From NCBI GenBank assembly GCA_016875995.1, contig VGOG01000011.1, positions 1 to 36,867 on the forward strand: 36,867 bases of DNA. Direction: 5' to 3'. This DNA is from Chloroflexota bacterium. GTDB taxonomy: Bacteria; Chloroflexota; Anaerolineae; VGOG01. This document shows positions 1 through 36,867 of this stretch, piece by piece (within the stretch, counting starts at the first letter, position 1; each line of letters opens with the position of its first letter). The translations under genes were made by a program, and so were the position numbers. The notes below the pieces were generated by a model. The model worked only from the letters and a program-made list of their open reading frames with translations, searched no databases and was not told where the DNA came from.

Positions 1-2301
1 TTGCCTGGCTTCGAGCCGCCCACTCGCCAACTCTCCCTGGCCGAAGTTGCCGGCGCCGTGCCGGAGCAGTGGGGTGCCCACTACACCCTGGCCCGCCTGC
101 TCGACGACCTGCGCGCCTTCGCCGCCGAAGCCCTCCAGACCCACGATCTCAACGCCCAGCTCTTCGCTGAGGAAGCCGAGAAATCCGTCCACCTGCTGGA
201 CGTCTTCCTCAACGACTACGACGTGGTGGTGATGAATCCGCCGTATAACAAACCGAAGGAGATGCTGTTTTCGGTACAACGTTACCTCCAGAAAACTTTC
301 CAGTATGGTACAAATGACCTGTACACTGCGTTTTTCGAACGTGCACATGACTTACTCATCCCCGGTGGTTACTGTGGAGCCATAACATCGAGAACCTTCT
401 TCTTTCTGGCAACCTTTGAGCAATTCAGACGACAGTTTCTTATTCCGCTCACGCAATTGCGAGCTACTGCAGATTTAGGATTTGGCATTTTGGATGATGC
501 TGCCGTAGAAACTTGTGCCACGGTCATTGAGAGATCACCAACCGAATCAAGTAGAAAATTGCCTGCAACGTTCTTGAGGTTGCTAGATGCTGAAGACAAA
601 CAGCAAGTTGTCTATAACATGTGTAGAGGACTTAGTGACCCTAGACATCAATGCCGGGTGTTTGTCGTATGGCAAGATGATTTCACACTGACCCCTAGAT
701 GCTCACTGGCTTATTGGGCTCCACACCGTTTACTTGAACTTTTCTCCAATCACGCGCCCTTTGGCGAAGTGTTCGGAGATGTGCGTATGGGGTTATCGAC
801 AGCCAATGATGAACGGTTCCTGCGCTATGTTTGGGAAATGAGTGGACAAAAGACACCACCTATCCAACGGTGGGTACCCCATGCAAAAGGTGGGGAATTC
901 TCTCGATACTATCAGGACTTATACCTTGCCATAGACTGGCTTGACAACGGCAAAGTACTAAAAGTGTCTGAGGGGGCAGTTATACGAAATGCTGCATACT
1001 ACTTCAAGGAAGGGCTAACTTATCCTCACGATACAGTTAAGGGCCTCAACGTTCGTTATCTACCACCGAATGCGACATTCGGAGCAAAAGGCCTAGGAAT
1101 CTTCGTCAATGAGCCCGCCAATTTGTGGTTTGTGCTTGGCTACCTCAACAGCATTTTAGCACAACAACTCATGCTGTTCATGACACCTAGTCGAAGCTGG
1201 GAAGTTGGCTTGATGCAGCAGTTGCCATGCAAAGTACCGCCAAATCCTCAGCAAAGTGTTGTTTCTATCAACGCTCAAACAATCTTCGCCCTCAAGGCCT
1301 CCTGGGACACCGGCAACGAGACCTGCACCCGCTTCGACGCCCCCTGGCTCATCCAGGCGCACCAGGGCACCCTCCTGGCTGGAGCAACCACCGAACTGGA
1401 AATACCCAATACCCAATATCCAATATCCAAAGTCCAACCTCTAACCTCCAACCTCCAATCTCTGCTCGATCACGTCTGCAGCGTAGAAACCGTCGCCGAC
1501 GCCCGCCTGCAACAGCTCCAGGCCCAGATTGATGAGGCCGTCTATGACCTGTACGAGATTTCTCCTGAAGACCGCGCCCTCATCGAACGGGAGCTGGGCG
1601 ACCGGCCGCCGGAGTTGGTCTGGCCTCAGTTGGAGGGGAAATCCAACAAAGAGAAGCGCCGCGAGCACGTCCGCCGTCTCGTCTCCTACTTCCTCCTCCA
1701 GGCCCTCCAGGAGAAGCGGGACGGAATTCTGCCCCTGACACCCGGCGCCGGCCAAACCACCGCCCTGGACGAGGTGCGCCGCGGCATGGAGGCCGAGTTC
1801 GGCGAGGACGCTGCCTTCAGGATGGAGACGGAGATCAAGCCGGTCCTGGGTCAGAGCTTCGCCGATTGGCTGGACGGGCCGTTCTTCAAGTGGCACACTC
1901 AACTCTACAAACGCTGCCCTATCATCTGGCACCTGGCCAGTCCTCGCAATCTCTTCGCCTGTTTCGTCTATATCCACAAACTGGATCGGGATACCCTGCG
2001 CAAGGTGCAAACCCTCTACCTCTGGCCCCGCCGCCGGGCAGCCGAGGCGGAGCTGGAGGCTGCGCGGGCCGAGAAGGCTCACCGCCGCATTGACCAGGCC
2101 GAAGCCCTTCTGGATGACCTGGCCGAGTTCGAGAAGCGGCTGCTGGCCGTTATCCAGGGCGAAGTGGAGTGCGACACCCCCGACTGGGCCGAGGGGCCGT
2201 ACCGTGGCGGCGTCTACGACCCGGTGCTGGACGACGGCGTGAAGGTGAACATCACTCCGTTGCAAGAGGGGGAGGTGTTGAGGTACAGGAAGGTAGTGTG
2301 A
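1..2301 (+). CDS. pglX: PglX-like/Eco57I-type N6-adenine DNA methyltransferase, C-terminal part (5' end lies outside window)
   Basis: ORF open at the left window edge; DVVVMNPPYNKP matches amino-MTase motif IV (NPPY); followed co-directionally by pglZ and brxL. Confidence 0.75.
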   Translation: MPGFEPPTRQLSLAEVAGAVPEQWGAHYTLARLLDDLRAFAAEALQTHDLNAQLFAEEAEKSVHLLDVFLNDYDVVVMNPPYNKPKEMLFSVQRYLQKTFQYGTNDLYTAFFERAHDLLIPGGYCGAITSRTFFFLATFEQFRRQFLIPLTQLRATADLGFGILDDAAVETCATVIERSPTESSRKLPATFLRLLDAEDKQQVVYNMCRGLSDPRHQCRVFVVWQDDFTLTPRCSLAYWAPHRLLELFSNHAPFGEVFGDVRMGLSTANDERFLRYVWEMSGQKTPPIQRWVPHAKGGEFSRYYQDLYLAIDWLDNGKVLKVSEGAVIRNAAYYFKEGLTYPHDTVKGLNVRYLPPNATFGAKGLGIFVNEPANLWFVLGYLNSILAQQLMLFMTPSRSWEVGLMQQLPCKVPPNPQQSVVSINAQTIFALKASWDTGNETCTRFDAPWLIQAHQGTLLAGATTELEIPNTQYPISKVQPLTSNLQSLLDHVCSVETVADARLQQLQAQIDEAVYDLYEISPEDRALIERELGDRPPELVWPQLEGKSNKEKRREHVRRLVSYFLLQALQEKRDGILPLTPGAGQTTALDEVRRGMEAEFGEDAAFRMETEIKPVLGQSFADWLDGPFFKWHTQLYKRCPIIWHLASPRNLFACFVYIHKLDRDTLRKVQTLYLWPRRRAAEAELEAARAEKAHRRIDQAEALLDDLAEFEKRLLAVIQGEVECDTPDWAEGPYRGGVYDPVLDDGVKVNITPLQEGEVLRYRKVV
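1401..1463. repeat. Degenerate 7-bp tandem array (9 units of AAYNYCC type) inside the methyltransferase ORF
   Basis: aataccc aataccc aatatcc aatatcc aaagtcc aacctct aacctcc aacctcc aatctct; 63 bp = 21 codons, frame preserved (NTQYPISKVQPLTSNLQSL). Confidence 0.85.
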
Positions 2302-2330
2302 TCGGATTGCCCGATTTGGGAGACAGACGC

Positions 2331-3989
2331 ATGACGGAAAAGCAGCTACGAGCGATCATTGCCACAGGTGAATCAACCACAGTGGAGTTCAAAAGCGACC
2401 GGGGACCGCTGTCCGATGCTGATCTATTGGAGACCGTCGTCTGCCTGGCGAACGGCCAGGGCGGCACTATTCTGATCGGCGTTGAGGATGACGGAACCGT
2501 TACGGGTCTACACCCCGACCACCGTACGCGACCGGGGTTCCTGGCTGCCTTCGTGACCAGCCGCACCGTGCCTTCGTTGGCCGTGGAAGTGGCCTTTGTG
2601 GACCTGCCCGAAGGGCCGGTAGCGGTGGTGACCGTGCCAGCCGCCCACCAGCCGGTGGCGACCAGCGACGGCAAGCTGGTCATTCGCTATACCGATACCC
2701 ACGGGAGGCCTGGCTGCCGTCCCCTCTACCCCTACGAACTGACCAGTTGGCGTGCCGACCGTGGCCTGACCGACCTTTCGGCGCTGCCGGTGCCTGGTAC
2801 AACCTGGGATGACCTGGACCCCCTCGAGTTCGCCCGCCTGCGCCGCATGGTAGAGGAGAACCGGGGCGATGCGGCGCTACTCGAGCTGTCGGACCAGGCC
2901 ATCGCCCGTGCGCTAGGCCTGGTGCGCGCCGAGGACAACGTGCTCACCCCCACGCTGGCTGGGCTACTCCTGGTCGGCAAGGAGAGCGCATTGCGCGAAT
3001 ATCTGCCAGCCCATGAAGTGGCGTTCCAGGTATTACGTGGCACCGACGTAGCGGTCAACGAGTTCCGTCGCTGGCCGTTGCTGCGTGTCCACGAATGGTT
3101 GGTGCAAGCGATTGAGGTGCGCAACGAGGAGCAGGAGCTGATGGTGGGCAGTTTCCGGGTGGGTGTGCCGCGCTATGATCGGCGCGGGATCCGCGAGGCG
3201 GTGAACAATGCCCTCATCCACCGCGATTACACTCGCCTGGGCGCCATCCATGTTCAACTGCACGACAACCACGCCCTGGTGACCAACCCCGGTGGCTTTG
3301 TACTGGGCGTGCGCGTTGACAACCTGCTGGTGGCGGCGCCACGGCCACGCAACCCGTTGCTGGCCGACGCTTTCAAGCGTGTCGGGTTGGTAGAACGCAC
3401 TGGTCGCGGCGTAGGCATCATCTACCATGGTCAGTTGAGCAACGGCCGGCCACCGCCGAGCTACGACCGCTCTACCGAGACGAACGTGACCGTCACCCTG
3501 GACAGCCGTCCCGCTGATCTGGACTTTGTGCAGCTCACCATCCAGGCCAACCGGAAGCTGGAACATGCTTTAGGGGTGGAAGAGTTATTGGCCTTATGGG
3601 AAGTGTGGCGGAAAGGGACCACGAATATCCATGAGCTAATGCCTATACTGCAACGGGATGTGACCAACACGGCCGATGTATTGGCCGAGTTAGCACAGGC
3701 CGGATTGCTCAAGGCCGATGGGCCGGCATATCGCCTGGCACCGGAACTGCGTGCGGGCGCGGAGAGAAGGGTTGGGATCATACCCATTGATCCTGACGCA
3801 GCCATCCTGTCCTACGTGCAAGAATGCGGCCGCATCACGCGCCGGGAGGCGATGACCTTAACAGGGTTGAGCGAAGAGCAGACTCGTTATAGGGTGCGGA
3901 AGCTGGTAGAGCGCGGTGCCCTGGAACAGGTAGGTATAGGGCGCGGCGCTCACTACCGAATGGCCCAGAAAGAGAAAAACGGGGAATAA
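2331..3989 (+). CDS. AlbA_2/Schlafen-like ATP-binding putative transcriptional regulator with C-terminal winged-helix-like region
   Basis: TVEFKSD...ANGQGGTILIGVEDDGTVTG (AlbA_2-type), REAVNNALIHRDY and GRGVGIIY (HATPase-like region), C-terminal RREAMTLTGLSEEQTRYRVRKL; ATG at 2331 preferred over the upstream ORF start. Confidence 0.8.
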   Translation: MTEKQLRAIIATGESTTVEFKSDRGPLSDADLLETVVCLANGQGGTILIGVEDDGTVTGLHPDHRTRPGFLAAFVTSRTVPSLAVEVAFVDLPEGPVAVVTVPAAHQPVATSDGKLVIRYTDTHGRPGCRPLYPYELTSWRADRGLTDLSALPVPGTTWDDLDPLEFARLRRMVEENRGDAALLELSDQAIARALGLVRAEDNVLTPTLAGLLLVGKESALREYLPAHEVAFQVLRGTDVAVNEFRRWPLLRVHEWLVQAIEVRNEEQELMVGSFRVGVPRYDRRGIREAVNNALIHRDYTRLGAIHVQLHDNHALVTNPGGFVLGVRVDNLLVAAPRPRNPLLADAFKRVGLVERTGRGVGIIYHGQLSNGRPPPSYDRSTETNVTVTLDSRPADLDFVQLTIQANRKLEHALGVEELLALWEVWRKGTTNIHELMPILQRDVTNTADVLAELAQAGLLKADGPAYRLAPELRAGAERRVGIIPIDPDAAILSYVQECGRITRREAMTLTGLSEEQTRYRVRKLVERGALEQVGIGRGAHYRMAQKEKNGE

Positions 3990-4017
3990 ACGGGGAATTC
4001 CCCGTTTATTCCCTGTT
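3978..4017. promoter_or_regulatory. Long palindrome overlapping the stop of the AlbA_2 gene (attenuator/terminator or operator)
   Basis: Perfect 32-bp palindrome GGGAATAAACGGGGAATTCCCCGTTTATTCCC at 3982-4013, extendable to 3978-4017 with one G.T pair; contains the TAA stop (3987-3989). Confidence 0.85.
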
Positions 4018-4050
4018 CTATCTCCGAATTGGGGTAAGCGAGGTAAGGCC

Positions 4051-6567
4051 ATGCTGATTCAAGCCTTAACTGACCATTTCAATTCCTACTTCTACCGCGC
4101 CAAACACCACGACACCGTCCTCTGGTTCGACCCAGACCAGGAATACGTTGCCCTGCTGGATCACCTGACCGACATTCCCTTGTGGCGCTACGAGGATAGC
4201 CTGCTCCAAGTGCGCTACCGGCTGGTCAAGCGCGCGCCAGGCGAGCGAGCTGTCGTCTACCTGCCCTTGTCTCAGAAGGATGCCGAAATCCTGCGTCCCT
4301 TCTTCGCTACCAGCCTCATCTTCCGTGAGCGCCTGTACCGCTTTCTGCGCCGGCAGGGCCTGGACTTCCCCGATGATCCAGAAGTGGCCCACGAACTGCG
4401 TGCTCTACTGCCTCGCCTGGCTGCCCGTTCGGTTGGCAAGGGACGTGTGTTTTGGGAGTACAACCTGGCCAACCTGGAGCGAGCGAGGGAGACGCTGCTA
4501 GGCAACTTCGACGATGCCTTGCTCCGCTTCCTGACCCAGCCACAGGTTCAACTGACCGAACTGAAGCGGGAAAAGCTGGACGGCCTCTTCTTCGCCCAAC
4601 TGGAGAGCGCCTACGGGCTGGCTGCCGATCCAGAGGACGATCCGGATGAGGTCGCCCGCCGACTGGCTGCCCAATTGATTCTCACCTGTGCCTACATGCA
4701 GGCTGAGATCAACCTGCGTGAGCACGACAGCGAACTGGAGGATTTCCCCTACCCGGCCCGGCTGGCTGAGCCCCTCCACCGCGAGCGCTGTTGGACCTTC
4801 GTGACCCGCTGGCAAAACGACCGTACCTACAGTATGACCTACGCCCGCCTGGCCGACGAGCTCCAGATGCGCTACGACCTGACGCGCTGGGCCGTGGGCC
4901 TGCCCCATGACGTCGGCTTGACCCTCCGAGACACCTTCGCCAACGTACAGGAGGCCCTCTGGACCCACGTCGAGAAGACTTTGGACTCGCTGGCGAGCGA
5001 GGACGAGTGGCGCAATTGGTTGCAGGCTCACGACGGCTCCATCGCCGCACGAGCCGACGACTTCTGGGCTCGCGAAGGTCGGGACCCCGGTTGGCGGCTG
5101 CTGGTCCTGGCCAGAGACCTGCTGACCGCCATTCACTGGGTACGGCAGCAGCTCGATCGCTTGACACGACCGTCTGAGGTGCTCCGAAGCTATGCCGAAG
5201 GGTGGTACTGCACTGATCAGGACTATCGCCGCCTGCGCGAAGCCCTGGACGCCTCCCCCCGCTCCCACGACCGGCTGCGCGACCGCTGCGCTCGCAGCTA
5301 TCGGGACATCCTGCGCCGCATGAACGACCGTTTCTGCACCTTGCTGGAGGCGGAAGGTCGTTGGCCCCCAGAAGCTCTGCCCGCTCAGGATGCCTTTTGG
5401 GCCCAGGCCATAGGCGAACCGAAACCTGTCCTGAGCCGAAGCCCTGAACGGAGTGAAGGGGTAGCCGAAGGAAAGGGACGGCGGGTGGCCATCATGTTCG
5501 TGGATGCCCTGCGCTACGAACTGGGCCAGGAACTGCGAGAGGCACTGGAGAGCGAGAACGCAGGTGATCGGCGACAGCTCGCCGCGCGCCTCGCTGCCAT
5601 CCCCACCGTAACCTCCATCGGCATGGCCGCCCTCCTGCCCGGCGGCGACCGCCGGCAGGTGGCCTACAGTGATGATTGGGAGGTCACCATCGAGGGCAGC
5701 GGCAATCTGAAAGAGAAAGGCGCCCGGCGACAGTGGCTGGAGCGACATCTGAAAGGTGCAGCCTTCTACAACTTGGAGGAGTTGCTGAACACGCCGACCG
5801 ACCGAATACCTGAAGTTGCTGCCTACATCATCTTCGACACGACACTGGACGCGGTGGGTGAAACAGCTAGTACACTGGCCTGGAACACCTTCAGCACACT
5901 GCTCCAATCGGTCAAGAAAGGGGTGCACAAGCTCCTGGCGCTGGGCGTGAACGAGGTCCACGTGGTGGCCGACCACGGCTTCCTGCTGCTGGACGAGGTT
6001 GGGGAGCACGAGAAGGTCAGCGTGCGAACGGTCCCAGCACCAGCCAAGAAGTCTCGCTACCTGGTAGGGCCACATCTGGGCAAGACGGAACAGTTGCGCT
6101 TCCCGGTGCCGGGCAGCCAGGACCTTGTAGCCTGGTTCCCCCGGGGCATCGGCTGCTTCCGTACGCCAGGCCCATACAACTACGTACACGGGGGACTGTC
6201 GCTTCAGGAGTTGGTAGTTCCCCATCTGACGGTGACCCAACAGGTACTGGGGCGACCCGTGGGAGTGCAGGTGAAGCTGCCAAAGGTGATCCGCAGTGCT
6301 CAATTCAAGGTCGTCTTGCAGCCCGTATCGGCCGACATCTTCGACCAGCCTCGACAGGTGGCTCTCAGCCTGGAGAAGGCCGGCCAGGCGGTGATTCCAC
6401 CCCTGAGCTGCATCGTTCGTCCCAGCGAGCCGACGACGATAGACGTTTTCCTGCCCATGGGCTGTGGCCTGGAGCCAGGCGATCAGGTGCGCTGGCTGCT
6501 CCGCGATGCTGTCACCGACGAGGTGCTGGCCGAGCAGGAGGCCGTCAGTGAAGTAGATCTGTGGTGA
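4051..6567 (+). CDS. pglZ: BREX alkaline-phosphatase-superfamily protein PglZ
   Basis: IMFVDALRYELGQEL, TVTSIGMAALLPGG and HVVADHGFLLLDE motifs; position between pglX and brxL. Confidence 0.88.
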   Translation: MLIQALTDHFNSYFYRAKHHDTVLWFDPDQEYVALLDHLTDIPLWRYEDSLLQVRYRLVKRAPGERAVVYLPLSQKDAEILRPFFATSLIFRERLYRFLRRQGLDFPDDPEVAHELRALLPRLAARSVGKGRVFWEYNLANLERARETLLGNFDDALLRFLTQPQVQLTELKREKLDGLFFAQLESAYGLAADPEDDPDEVARRLAAQLILTCAYMQAEINLREHDSELEDFPYPARLAEPLHRERCWTFVTRWQNDRTYSMTYARLADELQMRYDLTRWAVGLPHDVGLTLRDTFANVQEALWTHVEKTLDSLASEDEWRNWLQAHDGSIAARADDFWAREGRDPGWRLLVLARDLLTAIHWVRQQLDRLTRPSEVLRSYAEGWYCTDQDYRRLREALDASPRSHDRLRDRCARSYRDILRRMNDRFCTLLEAEGRWPPEALPAQDAFWAQAIGEPKPVLSRSPERSEGVAEGKGRRVAIMFVDALRYELGQELREALESENAGDRRQLAARLAAIPTVTSIGMAALLPGGDRRQVAYSDDWEVTIEGSGNLKEKGARRQWLERHLKGAAFYNLEELLNTPTDRIPEVAAYIIFDTTLDAVGETASTLAWNTFSTLLQSVKKGVHKLLALGVNEVHVVADHGFLLLDEVGEHEKVSVRTVPAPAKKSRYLVGPHLGKTEQLRFPVPGSQDLVAWFPRGIGCFRTPGPYNYVHGGLSLQELVVPHLTVTQQVLGRPVGVQVKLPKVIRSAQFKVVLQPVSADIFDQPRQVALSLEKAGQAVIPPLSCIVRPSEPTTIDVFLPMGCGLEPGDQVRWLLRDAVTDEVLAEQEAVSEVDLW
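5425..5472. repeat. Interspersed-repeat-like in-frame insert in pglZ
   Basis: cctgtcctgagccgaagccctgaacggagtgaaggggtagccgaagga; 48 bp, encodes PVLSRSPERSEGVAEG in a linker just before VAIMFVDALRYE. Confidence 0.6.
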
Positions 6568-6583
6568 CGATGGAGTGTTTACG

Positions 6584-8638
6584 ATGCAAAAGACGCTTGT
6601 GTTGGATGAACTGGATCAGAAGTTGGCCGATGCCTTTCCGGGTCGGGTAGTGCGCAAGGACCTGGTACGTCAGACCAAAGTTGGCTTCAACGTGCCGGTC
6701 TACGTGCTGGAGTACCTGCTGGGTCAATATTGCGCCTCGACTGATCCAGAGGTCGTGGCTAAGGGCCTGAACTACGTACGCGAGACCCTGAGCCGCAACT
6801 ACGTCCGCGCTGACGAGAGCGAGAAGGTCAAGGCCATCACCCGCCAGAAGGGCCGCCACCGCATCCTGGATAAGGTCAAGGCCCGCCTGGACACCAACGT
6901 GAACCACTTCTGGGCTGAGTTGGTCAACCTGGGGGTCAAAGACGCCCTCATTGCCGATGACATCGTCCACGGCTATGACAAACTGCTGGTCGGTGGCATC
7001 TGGGCCCTGGTTGATCTGATCTACGACCCGGACTTCCAGGAGAGGGGGGTCACGCGACCATTTGCCATCGAGCGGCTCAAACCCATCCAGCAGCCCTCGA
7101 CGGACCTGACCGATTTTCTGGCTGCGCGGGGCAGCTTCAGCACCGACGAATGGCTGGACATGCTATTGCGCAGCCTTGGCCTGGAGCCAACCCATCCCGA
7201 CTTCACCCGGCGCAAGAAACTGCTGTACCTGATGCGGCTGATCCCCATGGTCGAGACCAACTACAACCTGCTAGAGCTCGGGCCGCGGGCAACCGGCAAG
7301 AGCTTCGTCTACCGTGAGATCTCCCCCTACGCCATCTTGATCTCAGGAGGACAGACGACCGTAGCCCAGCTTTTCATGCATCTGGGCACCGGACGCATCG
7401 GTCTGGTCGGGCTATGGGACGTGGTCGCCTTCGACGAGGTGGCCGGGGTGCGCTTCAAAGACCCTAACGGCGTCCAGATCCTCAAGGACTTCATGGAATC
7501 AGGCAGCTTCTCCCGCGGCAAAGAAGAGGTGCCAGCCGAAGCAGCCATCGTGTTCAATGGCAACCTGGACGGCGACGTGGCCACGCTGGTCAAGACCTCG
7601 CATCTCCTGCAACCACTGTCGGACCAGATGCAAGACCTGGCCTTGATTGACCGCATCCACTTCTACCTGCCGGGCTGGGAGATGGACAAGATGAGGCCGG
7701 AATACTTGACCGATCATTACGGCCTGGTGGTGGACTACATCACCGAGGTTTGGCGCTCCCTACGCAAGACCAGCTACGCCGATCTGGTGGATAGGCACTT
7801 CAGCCTGGGCAGCCACCTGAATCAGCGAGACGTGCGGGCCGTGCGCAAGACGGTCTCCGGCTTGGTCAAGCTACTGCATCCAGACGGTCAGGTGTCCCAG
7901 GATGAACTGGAGGAGTACCTGCAACTGGCCATGGAAGGCCGGCGGCGGGTCAAAGAGCAACTCAGGCGTATGGGCGGTCTGGAGTTCTGGGCGGTCAACT
8001 TCTCTTACATTGACCTTGAAACCCGCCAGGAGACCTTCGTCGCCATGCCAGAGCAGACCAGCGGCGGGCTAATCACCCCGGGGCAACTCGATCCGGGCGT
8101 GACCTTCACCGTGGGCACCGATCAGGCTGACGGCCGACTGGTCATCTTCCGTATCGAGGCCCAGGCCATGAAAGGGAGTGGTAAGCTGCGTGTAACCGGC
8201 TCGCCATCCAGGGCGGTTCGAGATGCCGTTGACACAGCCCACACCTATCTCAAGTCCCAGTACTCGCGGCTGGGCTTGAGCAAGAATCCCAACGACTACG
8301 ACCTGCACGTGCAGTTGGTCAACCTGATGGGAGCCAGGGAGGGAAGCGAGACAGGGGTGGCCTTCTTCGTGGCTATGGTGAGCGCACTATTGGGCAAGCC
8401 GATGGTGGAGTCGCTGGTAGTATTGGGGGAGATGAGCCTGCGAGGAGGACTGCTGAAGGTGGATCTCCTAACCGAGCGCCTGCAACTGGCCATGGACAAC
8501 GGGGCCAAGCGCGTGTTGCTCCCCGCCGAGAACAAGCGTGACTTCGCCGACATCCCCTCCGACGTGCTGGACAAGCTGCAGATTATCTTCTACTCCGACC
8601 CCATCAGCGCTGCTTTCCGGGCTATGGGTCTGGAGTAG
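6584..8638 (+). CDS. brxL: BREX Lon-like AAA+ protein BrxL
   Basis: Walker A GPRATGKS, DEVAGVRFKDPNG, C-terminal Lon-like fold region SETGVAFFVAMVSALLGKPMVESLVVLGEMSLRGGLL; ATG 6584 preceded by GGAG. Confidence 0.9.
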   Translation: MQKTLVLDELDQKLADAFPGRVVRKDLVRQTKVGFNVPVYVLEYLLGQYCASTDPEVVAKGLNYVRETLSRNYVRADESEKVKAITRQKGRHRILDKVKARLDTNVNHFWAELVNLGVKDALIADDIVHGYDKLLVGGIWALVDLIYDPDFQERGVTRPFAIERLKPIQQPSTDLTDFLAARGSFSTDEWLDMLLRSLGLEPTHPDFTRRKKLLYLMRLIPMVETNYNLLELGPRATGKSFVYREISPYAILISGGQTTVAQLFMHLGTGRIGLVGLWDVVAFDEVAGVRFKDPNGVQILKDFMESGSFSRGKEEVPAEAAIVFNGNLDGDVATLVKTSHLLQPLSDQMQDLALIDRIHFYLPGWEMDKMRPEYLTDHYGLVVDYITEVWRSLRKTSYADLVDRHFSLGSHLNQRDVRAVRKTVSGLVKLLHPDGQVSQDELEEYLQLAMEGRRRVKEQLRRMGGLEFWAVNFSYIDLETRQETFVAMPEQTSGGLITPGQLDPGVTFTVGTDQADGRLVIFRIEAQAMKGSGKLRVTGSPSRAVRDAVDTAHTYLKSQYSRLGLSKNPNDYDLHVQLVNLMGAREGSETGVAFFVAMVSALLGKPMVESLVVLGEMSLRGGLLKVDLLTERLQLAMDNGAKRVLLPAENKRDFADIPSDVLDKLQIIFYSDPISAAFRAMGLE

Positions 8639-9094
8639 GTGTCTGTCCAAATGTCTGGCCAGAGTCCAGAGACACAAGCACGCCTGCAAAGCATAAACAA
8701 GTTCCTCGAAGAGATCTACGGCCACCCCCGCTGGCTGAGCGACATCCTGCGCGCTGCGGGGATGGACGAAGACGAGATCACACGGCTGCGGAGCGATCAC
8801 CTGGACGACTACCTGGCCGGGCTTCTCCGGCGTTGGTGGTCGTGGATGGCCGAGATCCTGCCGTCCCGACGCGACGACATCATCGTCCGCCGCTACGGTC
8901 TGAACGGCTCTCCTCGACCGTCCCTGGCCCATCTCGGCCACGAGTACGGTATCTCTCGCGAGCGTGTCCGCCAACTGGAAAAAAGTGCCCTGAAGCGGTT
9001 ACGCTACCCGGCACGCAGACGCAGGCTGGAGCGCATTGCCGTGGAAACAGCGAGGGAGATCTTTGGGGGGTCAGACCGCGGAGGTTGTGACTGA
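8639..9094 (+). CDS. Small protein with sigma-70 region 4-type helix-turn-helix
   Basis: SLAHLGHEYGISRERVRQLEKSALKRLR matches sigma region 4.2; GTG start directly abuts the brxL stop. Confidence 0.8.
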   Translation: MSVQMSGQSPETQARLQSINKFLEEIYGHPRWLSDILRAAGMDEDEITRLRSDHLDDYLAGLLRRWWSWMAEILPSRRDDIIVRRYGLNGSPRPSLAHLGHEYGISRERVRQLEKSALKRLRYPARRRRLERIAVETAREIFGGSDRGGCD

Positions 9095-9146
9095 CCCCGG
9101 ACGAGGTGTTAACCCGATCGCCTATAGGATGACCTGAGTATCAATA

Positions 9147-10892
9147 ATGGCTACAATGATTACCTGCTACGGGGGTATCAACGAGATAGGCGGCAGTAAG
9201 GTCCTGGTCGAAGACGGAAACGTCCGGGCCTTCCTCGATTTTGGCAAATCTTTCGGCCGCTACAGTGACTACTTCGACGGCGTCTTCGTGCGGGAGCGGA
9301 CAACCAGGGGGCTGCTGGATGCCATGGCCCTGGGCCTGATTCCCCCTTTGGAAGGATTGTACAGGGATGACTTGGTCCCCATTTTCAACCCGGCACACGT
9401 TACAGTGCGGGAGGAGGAGTACTCCGACCGGGCGGGTCGGCGCAGAAGACGGCAATGCATGGAACGGGACGAACCCGCTGCCTATGCGGATTTCTGGGCA
9501 CGCTTTCGAATCTGCCCAGGCTACCGGGACCTGAGGCGGGAGGGGCCGGCGGTAGATGCCATCGTGTTGTCTCATGCACATCTGGATCATAGTGGTGATC
9601 TGGACTTTGTGGACCCTGACATTGCGGTGTTATCCTCACGCATGACGGCCTTCATTGCCAAGGCCATGCAGGACAGCGGCAAGCCCGGCGCTTCGGGGGT
9701 GGTCTACGCCAACCCTCATACCGTCAAAGAGAACGGCCTGCTGGCGGCAGATCAGTCGAAGGGATATGTCTGGCGGCGGTGGGGCTTCCTCGATGGCGAG
9801 CCTGCAGGATGTGCAAGCGCATCAGATCCTTTTGCCAGCGCCTGGAGCTTCTGGGTCTGGCGGCCAGCCAAGCAGGATCAGCCCGCCCCGGAAGCAGGAA
9901 CGCACAGCGAACCGGCTCCCTTGAACCTTAGGTGGTGGCCGCTGGACCATTCCCTCTTCGGAGCGGATGGCTTCGTCGTGGAGACGACGGCCGGCCTGAT
10001 AGCTTATACCGGCGACATCAGGTTCCATGGGCGTAACCGTGACCTCAGCTACCGTTTTGCGGAAGAGCTTTCGGTTCTCCGTCCTCTTGCCTTGCTTTGC
10101 GAGGGAACCCGCGCCGGTATCGGTGAACGCGTGACCGAGGATGAGGTCAGGGACAACTGTCTGGCCGCCGTTCAGGCGGCCGAAGGCAGGTTGGTTGTCG
10201 CCGATTTCGCCCCCCGCAACGTAGAGCGGCTCATCACCTTTCTGGACATCGCCCGCCAGACTAAGCGACGTCTGCTCATCCAGCCCAAAGATGCCTACCT
10301 GCTGGCGGCCATGCGCCTGGCTGAGCCGGCATCCGTCCCAGATCTGGAGCGGGAGCCATGGCTGGCCGTGTATGACGATCCCAAAGGCCAGCAGTACAAA
10401 TGGGAGCAGATAACCCGGCAGGTGTATGCCGACAACCTTTTGGGCCCTGACGAAGTCAAGGCACATCCCGGTGACTACATCCTGGCCTTCAGCCTGTGGG
10501 ATATGGCAGACCTGTTGGACGTCGAACATATCCTGGGAGAGGCCCCCGGAGGCGCGTACATCTACTCCAATAGCAAGGCCTATGACGAGGAACAGAAGGT
10601 AGACCTGGTGCGACTATGGAACTGGATCCGCCACTTCGGGATGGAACCGGTCGGATTGGAGGTAGTGGCTCGTGACCGGACTGGCCGGGTGGCCGAGGTT
10701 GACGTGGTGCCGGGCTATCATGCCTCCGGGCATGCTGACGGACCCGAACTGCTCCAGCTCGTGAAGACCGTGCGTCCCAAAGTGCTTATCCCCGTTCACA
10801 CAGAGCAGCCCCAATGGTGGCTAGAGGAACTGGCAGGGACCGGAATCCAGGTGGAGATCCCGCTCTATGCCCGGCCTATGTATCTGCGCTGA
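9147..10892 (+). CDS. MBL-fold metallo-hydrolase, RNase J/beta-CASP-like
   Basis: SHAHLDHSGDL (HxHxDH), AYTGDIRFHG, YHASGHADGPELLQLVKTVRPKVLIPVHTEQP. Confidence 0.85.
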   Translation: MATMITCYGGINEIGGSKVLVEDGNVRAFLDFGKSFGRYSDYFDGVFVRERTTRGLLDAMALGLIPPLEGLYRDDLVPIFNPAHVTVREEEYSDRAGRRRRRQCMERDEPAAYADFWARFRICPGYRDLRREGPAVDAIVLSHAHLDHSGDLDFVDPDIAVLSSRMTAFIAKAMQDSGKPGASGVVYANPHTVKENGLLAADQSKGYVWRRWGFLDGEPAGCASASDPFASAWSFWVWRPAKQDQPAPEAGTHSEPAPLNLRWWPLDHSLFGADGFVVETTAGLIAYTGDIRFHGRNRDLSYRFAEELSVLRPLALLCEGTRAGIGERVTEDEVRDNCLAAVQAAEGRLVVADFAPRNVERLITFLDIARQTKRRLLIQPKDAYLLAAMRLAEPASVPDLEREPWLAVYDDPKGQQYKWEQITRQVYADNLLGPDEVKAHPGDYILAFSLWDMADLLDVEHILGEAPGGAYIYSNSKAYDEEQKVDLVRLWNWIRHFGMEPVGLEVVARDRTGRVAEVDVVPGYHASGHADGPELLQLVKTVRPKVLIPVHTEQPQWWLEELAGTGIQVEIPLYARPMYLR

Positions 10893-35870: not shown

Positions 35871-36867
35871 CTACAACAGTGCCTCGCTACAGATGATGCG
35901 CGGAATCAACGGCGCTTCCTCGGCTCGATCAACAACGGTGCGGTGAGTTTCCTCCAGGTTGTAGTCCCGCACGATGCGCAATAGTTGCTCGATCAGAGCC
36001 TGGCCGGTGATCTGGCTGCGCCGCAGGTTGTTGAGCTCACGATGGGCACGAGCGGTCAAGGGGACGGTGCTTAAGATCTCGGACAGGAAAGCCAGCCGAG
36101 CTTTCTCCTCTGGGTCCTCCTCAGCATCGAAGATGAGGCGCAGTTCGGCCAGGGCGTAGTCGCGACCCAGGGCGGCGCCCACCCTGTGGCGGATCTCGGC
36201 CTCGCGAGCCCGCACCTCGGCGTCGAAGTCGCGCTTGACGGCGGCGATGCGCTCGTTAATGCCAACGGGCAGCGCCAGGGTGGGCTCGTCCTCCTCGCAG
36301 CGGATGGCGCGGATGGCCTGCTGAGGATCCGCCGTGCGATGGCCCCGTTCATCAACCAGGTAGAGGCGCTGATAGCTGCCGGCCTGGCAGAAGACGAACA
36401 GGCCAGGTTCACCAACGGACTGGCGCGCGCTGCGGACGCCGTCGGGCATGGTGGCGATCTCCTGAAAGCGGTCGGGGTCGGTGCGCTGCAGTTGGCGGAT
36501 GAGCTCTTCGGCCTCCAGCAGGCTGAAGATGTCGGGCTCAGGCTCGTCGTCCAGGACGCTGGGATCGCCCCGATAGATGGCGTACATGGCCTCCTCGTTG
36601 ATCTGCTCGCTCTTGTGCAGCACAGGGGCATCCTCGCCGATGGTGCGGTGGATGTCGGCGATGCGGCGCTCCAGACGTTGCTCGATGCCCAGCTCGCGCT
36701 CCAGGCCGGTCTCAGGGAGGAAGTTGTAGGCATAGATCGTATCGTGCTCAGTGCCGATGCGGTCCACGCGGCCCACGCGCTGGATGAGGCGGATGGGGTT
36801 CCAATGCAGGTCGTAATTGACGACGTGGTTGGCGTCCTGCAGGTTGAGGCCCTCGCTCAGGACGTCG
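35871..36867 (-). CDS. SNF2-family helicase, C-terminal part (5' end outside window)
   Basis: [42 protein letters not shown] = helicase motifs V/VI, in frame to the right edge. Confidence 0.88.

Follow-up and report, generated by a model that had tools for sequence, protein, structure and literature searches.

The window, a stretch of 36,867 nucleotides that makes up the entire contig C11 of a Chloroflexota assembly (414 contigs, 94.9% complete, 5.3% contamination), opens with six co-directional genes on the plus strand, separated in order by gaps of 29, 61, 7, 0 and 52 bp. All six lie where the earlier note had placed them and match the families it had named. The contig begins with the C-terminal part of pglX (1–2301), which matches PADLOC PglX (1.8e-91) and positions 473–1209 of the NF033452 model and contains the NPPY methylase motif. 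The following gene (2331–3989) encodes a Schlafen/AlbA_2–HATPase_c_4–winged-HTH protein (PF04326, 2.8e-19; PF13749, 1.3e-14; HTH_24, 2.7e-6), for which the comparison of start codons favoured the ATG at 2331. The pglZ gene (4051–6567) was assigned by PF08665 (1.6e-17) and PADLOC PglZ (1.3e-57), with 178.7 bits to TIGR02687 (cut-off 270), and brxL (6575–8638) by TIGR02653 (917.7 bits, cut-off 628), its product combining the BrxL_N, BrxL_ATPase and Lon_C domains. Downstream of brxL lie sig4 (8639–9094; PF04545, 3e-11), encoding a stand-alone sigma region-4 protein that begins with a helical domain, and a gene for an EF2904-like MBL/beta-CASP nuclease, not an RNase J (9147–10892; RMMBL, 3.2e-8; Lactamase_B_2, 7.5e-7). 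The true start of sig4 is probably the ATG at 8651, with an ATG at the matching place in a relative on contig C306 of the same assembly. Between the AlbA_2 gene and pglZ, a palindrome with a 14-bp hairpin stem (3982–4013, no strand assigned) is a candidate element that may represent a partial terminator, a regulator binding site or an operon divider; promoter and terminator scans returned counts at chance level. At the far edge of the contig, the minus strand encodes the C-terminal part of an SNF2-type helicase (35871–36866; HKD+Snf2 family, E 2e-4), another possible defence gene.

As the contig starts inside pglX, the remainder of the locus was sought in the same assembly. The N-terminal 584 aa of PglX are encoded on contig C255, the end of which matched positions 1–466 of the type 1 PglX model, and a BrxC search gave matches on contigs C244 and C255. 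The window start (1–121) overlaps C255 by 121 bp (98.3%), and C255 in turn overlaps C244 by 788 bp (95.4%). Joined as C244, C255 and C11, the contigs yield the order brxA, brxB, REase-ARP, brxC, a gene for a 299-aa protein, pglX, AlbA_2, pglZ, brxL, sig4 and MBL. REase-ARP is a 361-aa PD-(D/E)XK-type protein (PF22558, 28.4 bits, barely above the cut-off of 27), while the 299-aa protein encoded between brxC and pglX was without a family match. The earlier note had stated that the upstream genes could not be seen, which is correct for contig C11 and incorrect for the assembly, where the rest of the operon is on C255 and C244; the brxA, brxB and brxC genes it had suggested searching for were all recovered from these two contigs. 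Because the overlaps between C244, C255 and C11 are inexact, two strains or copies are probably represented in the assembly at the BREX locus, and the joined operon, with overlaps of 95–98% and not 100%, may be a mix of strains from one population.

The assignment of the locus to BREX in the earlier note was right. The full type 1 set of brxA, brxB, brxC, pglX, pglZ and brxL was found in the standard A-B-C-X-Z-L order and on one strand across the joined contigs, whose overlaps are those of strain variants and not proof of one molecule. BrxL scored far above its family cut-off; PglX and PglZ, in contrast, fall under the NCBIfam type 1 cut-offs (PglX being scored as a fragment), and the locus further differs from type 1 BREX in its additional REase-ARP, 299-aa, Schlafen, Sig4 and MBL genes. 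Schlafen and PD-(D/E)XK accessories are on record for BREX, and the combination of AlbA_2 with HATPase_c_4 and a winged HTH is a recorded accessory, interpreted as a Schlafen RNase effector (PMC12839542). The window protein shares with these auxiliary RNases the fusion of AlbA_2 to a minimal histidine-kinase ATPase and a winged HTH, as well as the position inside the core operon, and no difference from them was seen at the domain level (PMC12839542). AlbA_2 as a new BREX partner was accordingly rejected, the accessory being already on record, and what had been called a non-canonical regulator is better described as this known Schlafen-type accessory (PMC12839542).

The family matches of Sig4 were confined to sigma-70 region 4. 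Because region 2 is absent, Sig4 is predicted to be unable to open promoters alone, and its sequence indicates that it is most likely a transcription regulator. The structural model (pLDDT 88.5) consists of helices throughout, about 65 residues forming an N-terminal domain ahead of the region-4 fold. A fold search ranked sigma factors at the top, none of them reaching an E-value of 0.001; fold and sequence matches both point to region 4 of principal sigma factors, and the recognition helix SRERVRQLE aligns with TRERIRQIE of SigA, containing the R-E-R-x-R-Q pattern of the -35 helix. The sole match in the defence library, over the region-4 part, was MzaA, a member of the sigma-70 family from the MZA defence system, which is however about 700 aa long compared with 151 aa for Sig4, the N-terminal domain of Sig4 being different. 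A scan of genome contigs with the single protein gave sigma region-4 matches in Alphaproteobacteria only, and a search of plasmids for Sig4 found none. Sigma functions are split in T4 gp33 and Bacillus SigO/RsoA, where the region-4-like piece is a separate protein; as these proteins are generally described, Sig4 resembles them in this respect, which we take as a lead.

The MBL/beta-CASP protein carries nine residues that are invariant in 18 relatives (H143, H145, D147, H148, H268, D290, E319, H529 and H551), and the whole RNA-type beta-CASP signature is present: HxHxDH, the motif 3 His, the motif 4 Asp, the motif A Asp/Glu, the motif B His and the motif C His. A histidine at motif C is usually taken as the sign of an RNA-acting enzyme, and the protein is thus predicted to be an active RNA-type beta-CASP nuclease. 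Its best NCBIfam match was RNase J (TIGR00649), with which it shares the MBL, beta-CASP and RMMBL layout and the motifs, including the motif C His; however, it scored 52.2 bits against a cut-off of 400, has insertions between the motifs, and lies in the tree a very long branch away from the RNase J that this genome encodes on contig C180 (601.9 bits to TIGR00649). A housekeeping RNase J was rejected on these grounds, in agreement with what the earlier note had implied, and a false 'BREX RNase J' entry is averted. The best solved relative is EF2904 (PDB 2az4), an uncharacterised MBL hydrolase with the same motifs in the same order, but of 429 aa compared with 581 aa. The family was present in 44 of 301 Chloroflexota genomes, and relatives without BREX occur on a few thermophile plasmids (Thermus, Rhodothermus, archaeal); a single-protein scan of genome contigs found no relative. 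At three loci (L040, L050 and L052) the MBL gene adjoins one for an SbcC/Rad50-like ATPase, lying at L050 also behind an SbcD-like phosphoesterase gene, and at L075 it adjoins DinB. Because of these neighbours, nucleic-acid repair or processing is suggested as one of the usual settings of the family, with the protein possibly acting as a repair nuclease. A literature search for BREX with metallo-beta-lactamase or beta-CASP proteins found no paper, and the main text of the BREX survey contains no MBL or lactamase term and refers to sigma solely as a BrxL-internal domain or in general remarks (PMC12839542).

A second copy of sig4 was found on contig C306 (L128), 96.5% identical to the window at the DNA level over 341 bp. 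The homology begins within 7 bp of the start codon, and the sequence upstream of it is unrelated to the window: positions 1–3639 of C306 encode, on one strand, an HmaC/DUF499-type ATPase, a 149-aa protein, an SHMT-like PLP enzyme and Sig4. The SHMT-like gene looks unusual inside a DUF499 locus. This copy may come from another strain that carries a different defence operon at this position, since the divergence between the overlapping BREX contigs is of comparable size, or it may be a second copy in one genome; under either reading, one and the same gene is joined to two systems that are unrelated. C306 could instead be an assembly chimera, given that its sig4 copy ends at the contig edge and that strain variants occur among the contigs of the assembly, but the copy differs from the window gene at 12 of 341 bases, its ATG is in frame at the equivalent position, its first codons are its own, and independent homologues lie behind other defence genes in other genomes, which makes an artefact improbable. 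Across the 397 genomes searched in the class, the nearest further relative of full length (43% identical, G658) comes immediately after a type III Res gene, and the next nearest (41%, G336) lies behind genes for an HKD-SNF2 helicase and a DUF5615 protein; two more distant members follow DUF6998/DUF559 (G302) and GmrSD_N (G584) genes. At least seven distant members have non-defence surroundings, among them zinc-ribbon or longer forms (G347 and G507), a member in G591 and members in four genomes of family f2, where the gene context is conserved and ordinary. Read from individual gene neighbourhoods, the link of Sig4 with defence recurs without being exclusive. Outside obvious defence loci, members of the Sig4 family carrying an N-terminal zinc ribbon were also observed at L203 (9723–10457) and L184 (563–1189).

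The earlier note had proposed that Sig4 and the MBL nuclease may serve as regulatory or effector modules of a distinct BREX subtype, an arrangement suited by their position after brxL, on the same strand and at such short distances. In such a subtype, the order brxL–sig4–MBL should recur in other genomes, but no second case was detected. Neither Sig4 nor MBL occurred in any of 31 other brxL neighbourhoods from 301 Chloroflexota genomes (14 with a pglZ match alongside, several with BrxL matches that are partial or confined to the Lon domain), and the genes downstream of brxL varied between the loci; the taxonomic order of the window genome contributed three genomes, i.e., two besides the window genome. 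Conversely, tblastn with the window's BREX proteins detected brxL, pglZ or pglX in 0 of 43 MBL neighbourhoods (39 from Chloroflexota genomes and four from plasmids, including some short contigs). With these tallies, and with Sig4 also standing behind an unrelated defence operon of the same assembly, the subtype was rejected, the lack of recurrence beside brxL being an outcome that the earlier note had named as its refutation, and we regard it as very improbable; a regulatory role for Sig4 stays plausible, while its specificity to BREX was not borne out. The opposite explanation, that both genes are unrelated passengers of a defence island, placed after brxL by accident and without a role in BREX, is possible though doubtful. 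It accords with the single occurrence of the pair, with the members of the Sig4 family in ordinary surroundings, and with the settings of the MBL family elsewhere, which are plasmids or ordinary chromosomal regions, with SbcC/Rad50-like, DinB or toxin-antitoxin genes as neighbours. However, sig4 follows brxL with zero gap on one strand, and chance placement at a single locus would not account for its presence behind several different defence operons.

We favour, with a probability of roughly 60%, the reading of the locus as a type 1 BREX system, complete and somewhat divergent, in which Sig4 is a regulator add-on common to other defence operons and the MBL gene was acquired locally. Judging from the protein families, PglX would mark self DNA by adenine methylation, and BrxC, BrxL, PglZ, BrxA and BrxB would act on unmarked phage DNA, with REase-ARP and the Schlafen/AlbA_2 protein as putative auxiliary or backup nucleases. 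Sig4 would probably bind -35 sequences or the beta flap of RNA polymerase and tune the expression of its host operon. The MBL protein, an apparently intact RNA-type beta-CASP nuclease gained at this single locus, could be either a passenger or a further accessory nuclease. The Schlafen and REase accessories are thus of known kinds and MBL is probably a local addition, whereas Sig4 points to something that is not BREX-specific and possibly new. More tentatively, we hypothesize that Sig4 belongs to a class of portable region-4-only regulators that recombination close to their start codon has appended, in one Chloroflexota class, to anti-phage operons of several unrelated kinds (BREX, Hma/DUF499, type III restriction, HKD-SNF2 helicase and GmrSD-like), each time at the operon end, and that place these systems under common transcriptional control. 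If one small -35-binding protein is indeed common to unrelated defence operons, it would open a way to study how bacteria regulate several defences together.

The BREX locus itself provides a nearly complete, accessory-rich type 1 example from a poorly sampled lineage. A second BREX-like locus was observed in the same genome on contig C49 (L129, 3–14368), with genes for a short BrxL, PglZ, an SspC/BrxC-like protein, a restriction-nuclease-like protein and a UvrD-like protein.
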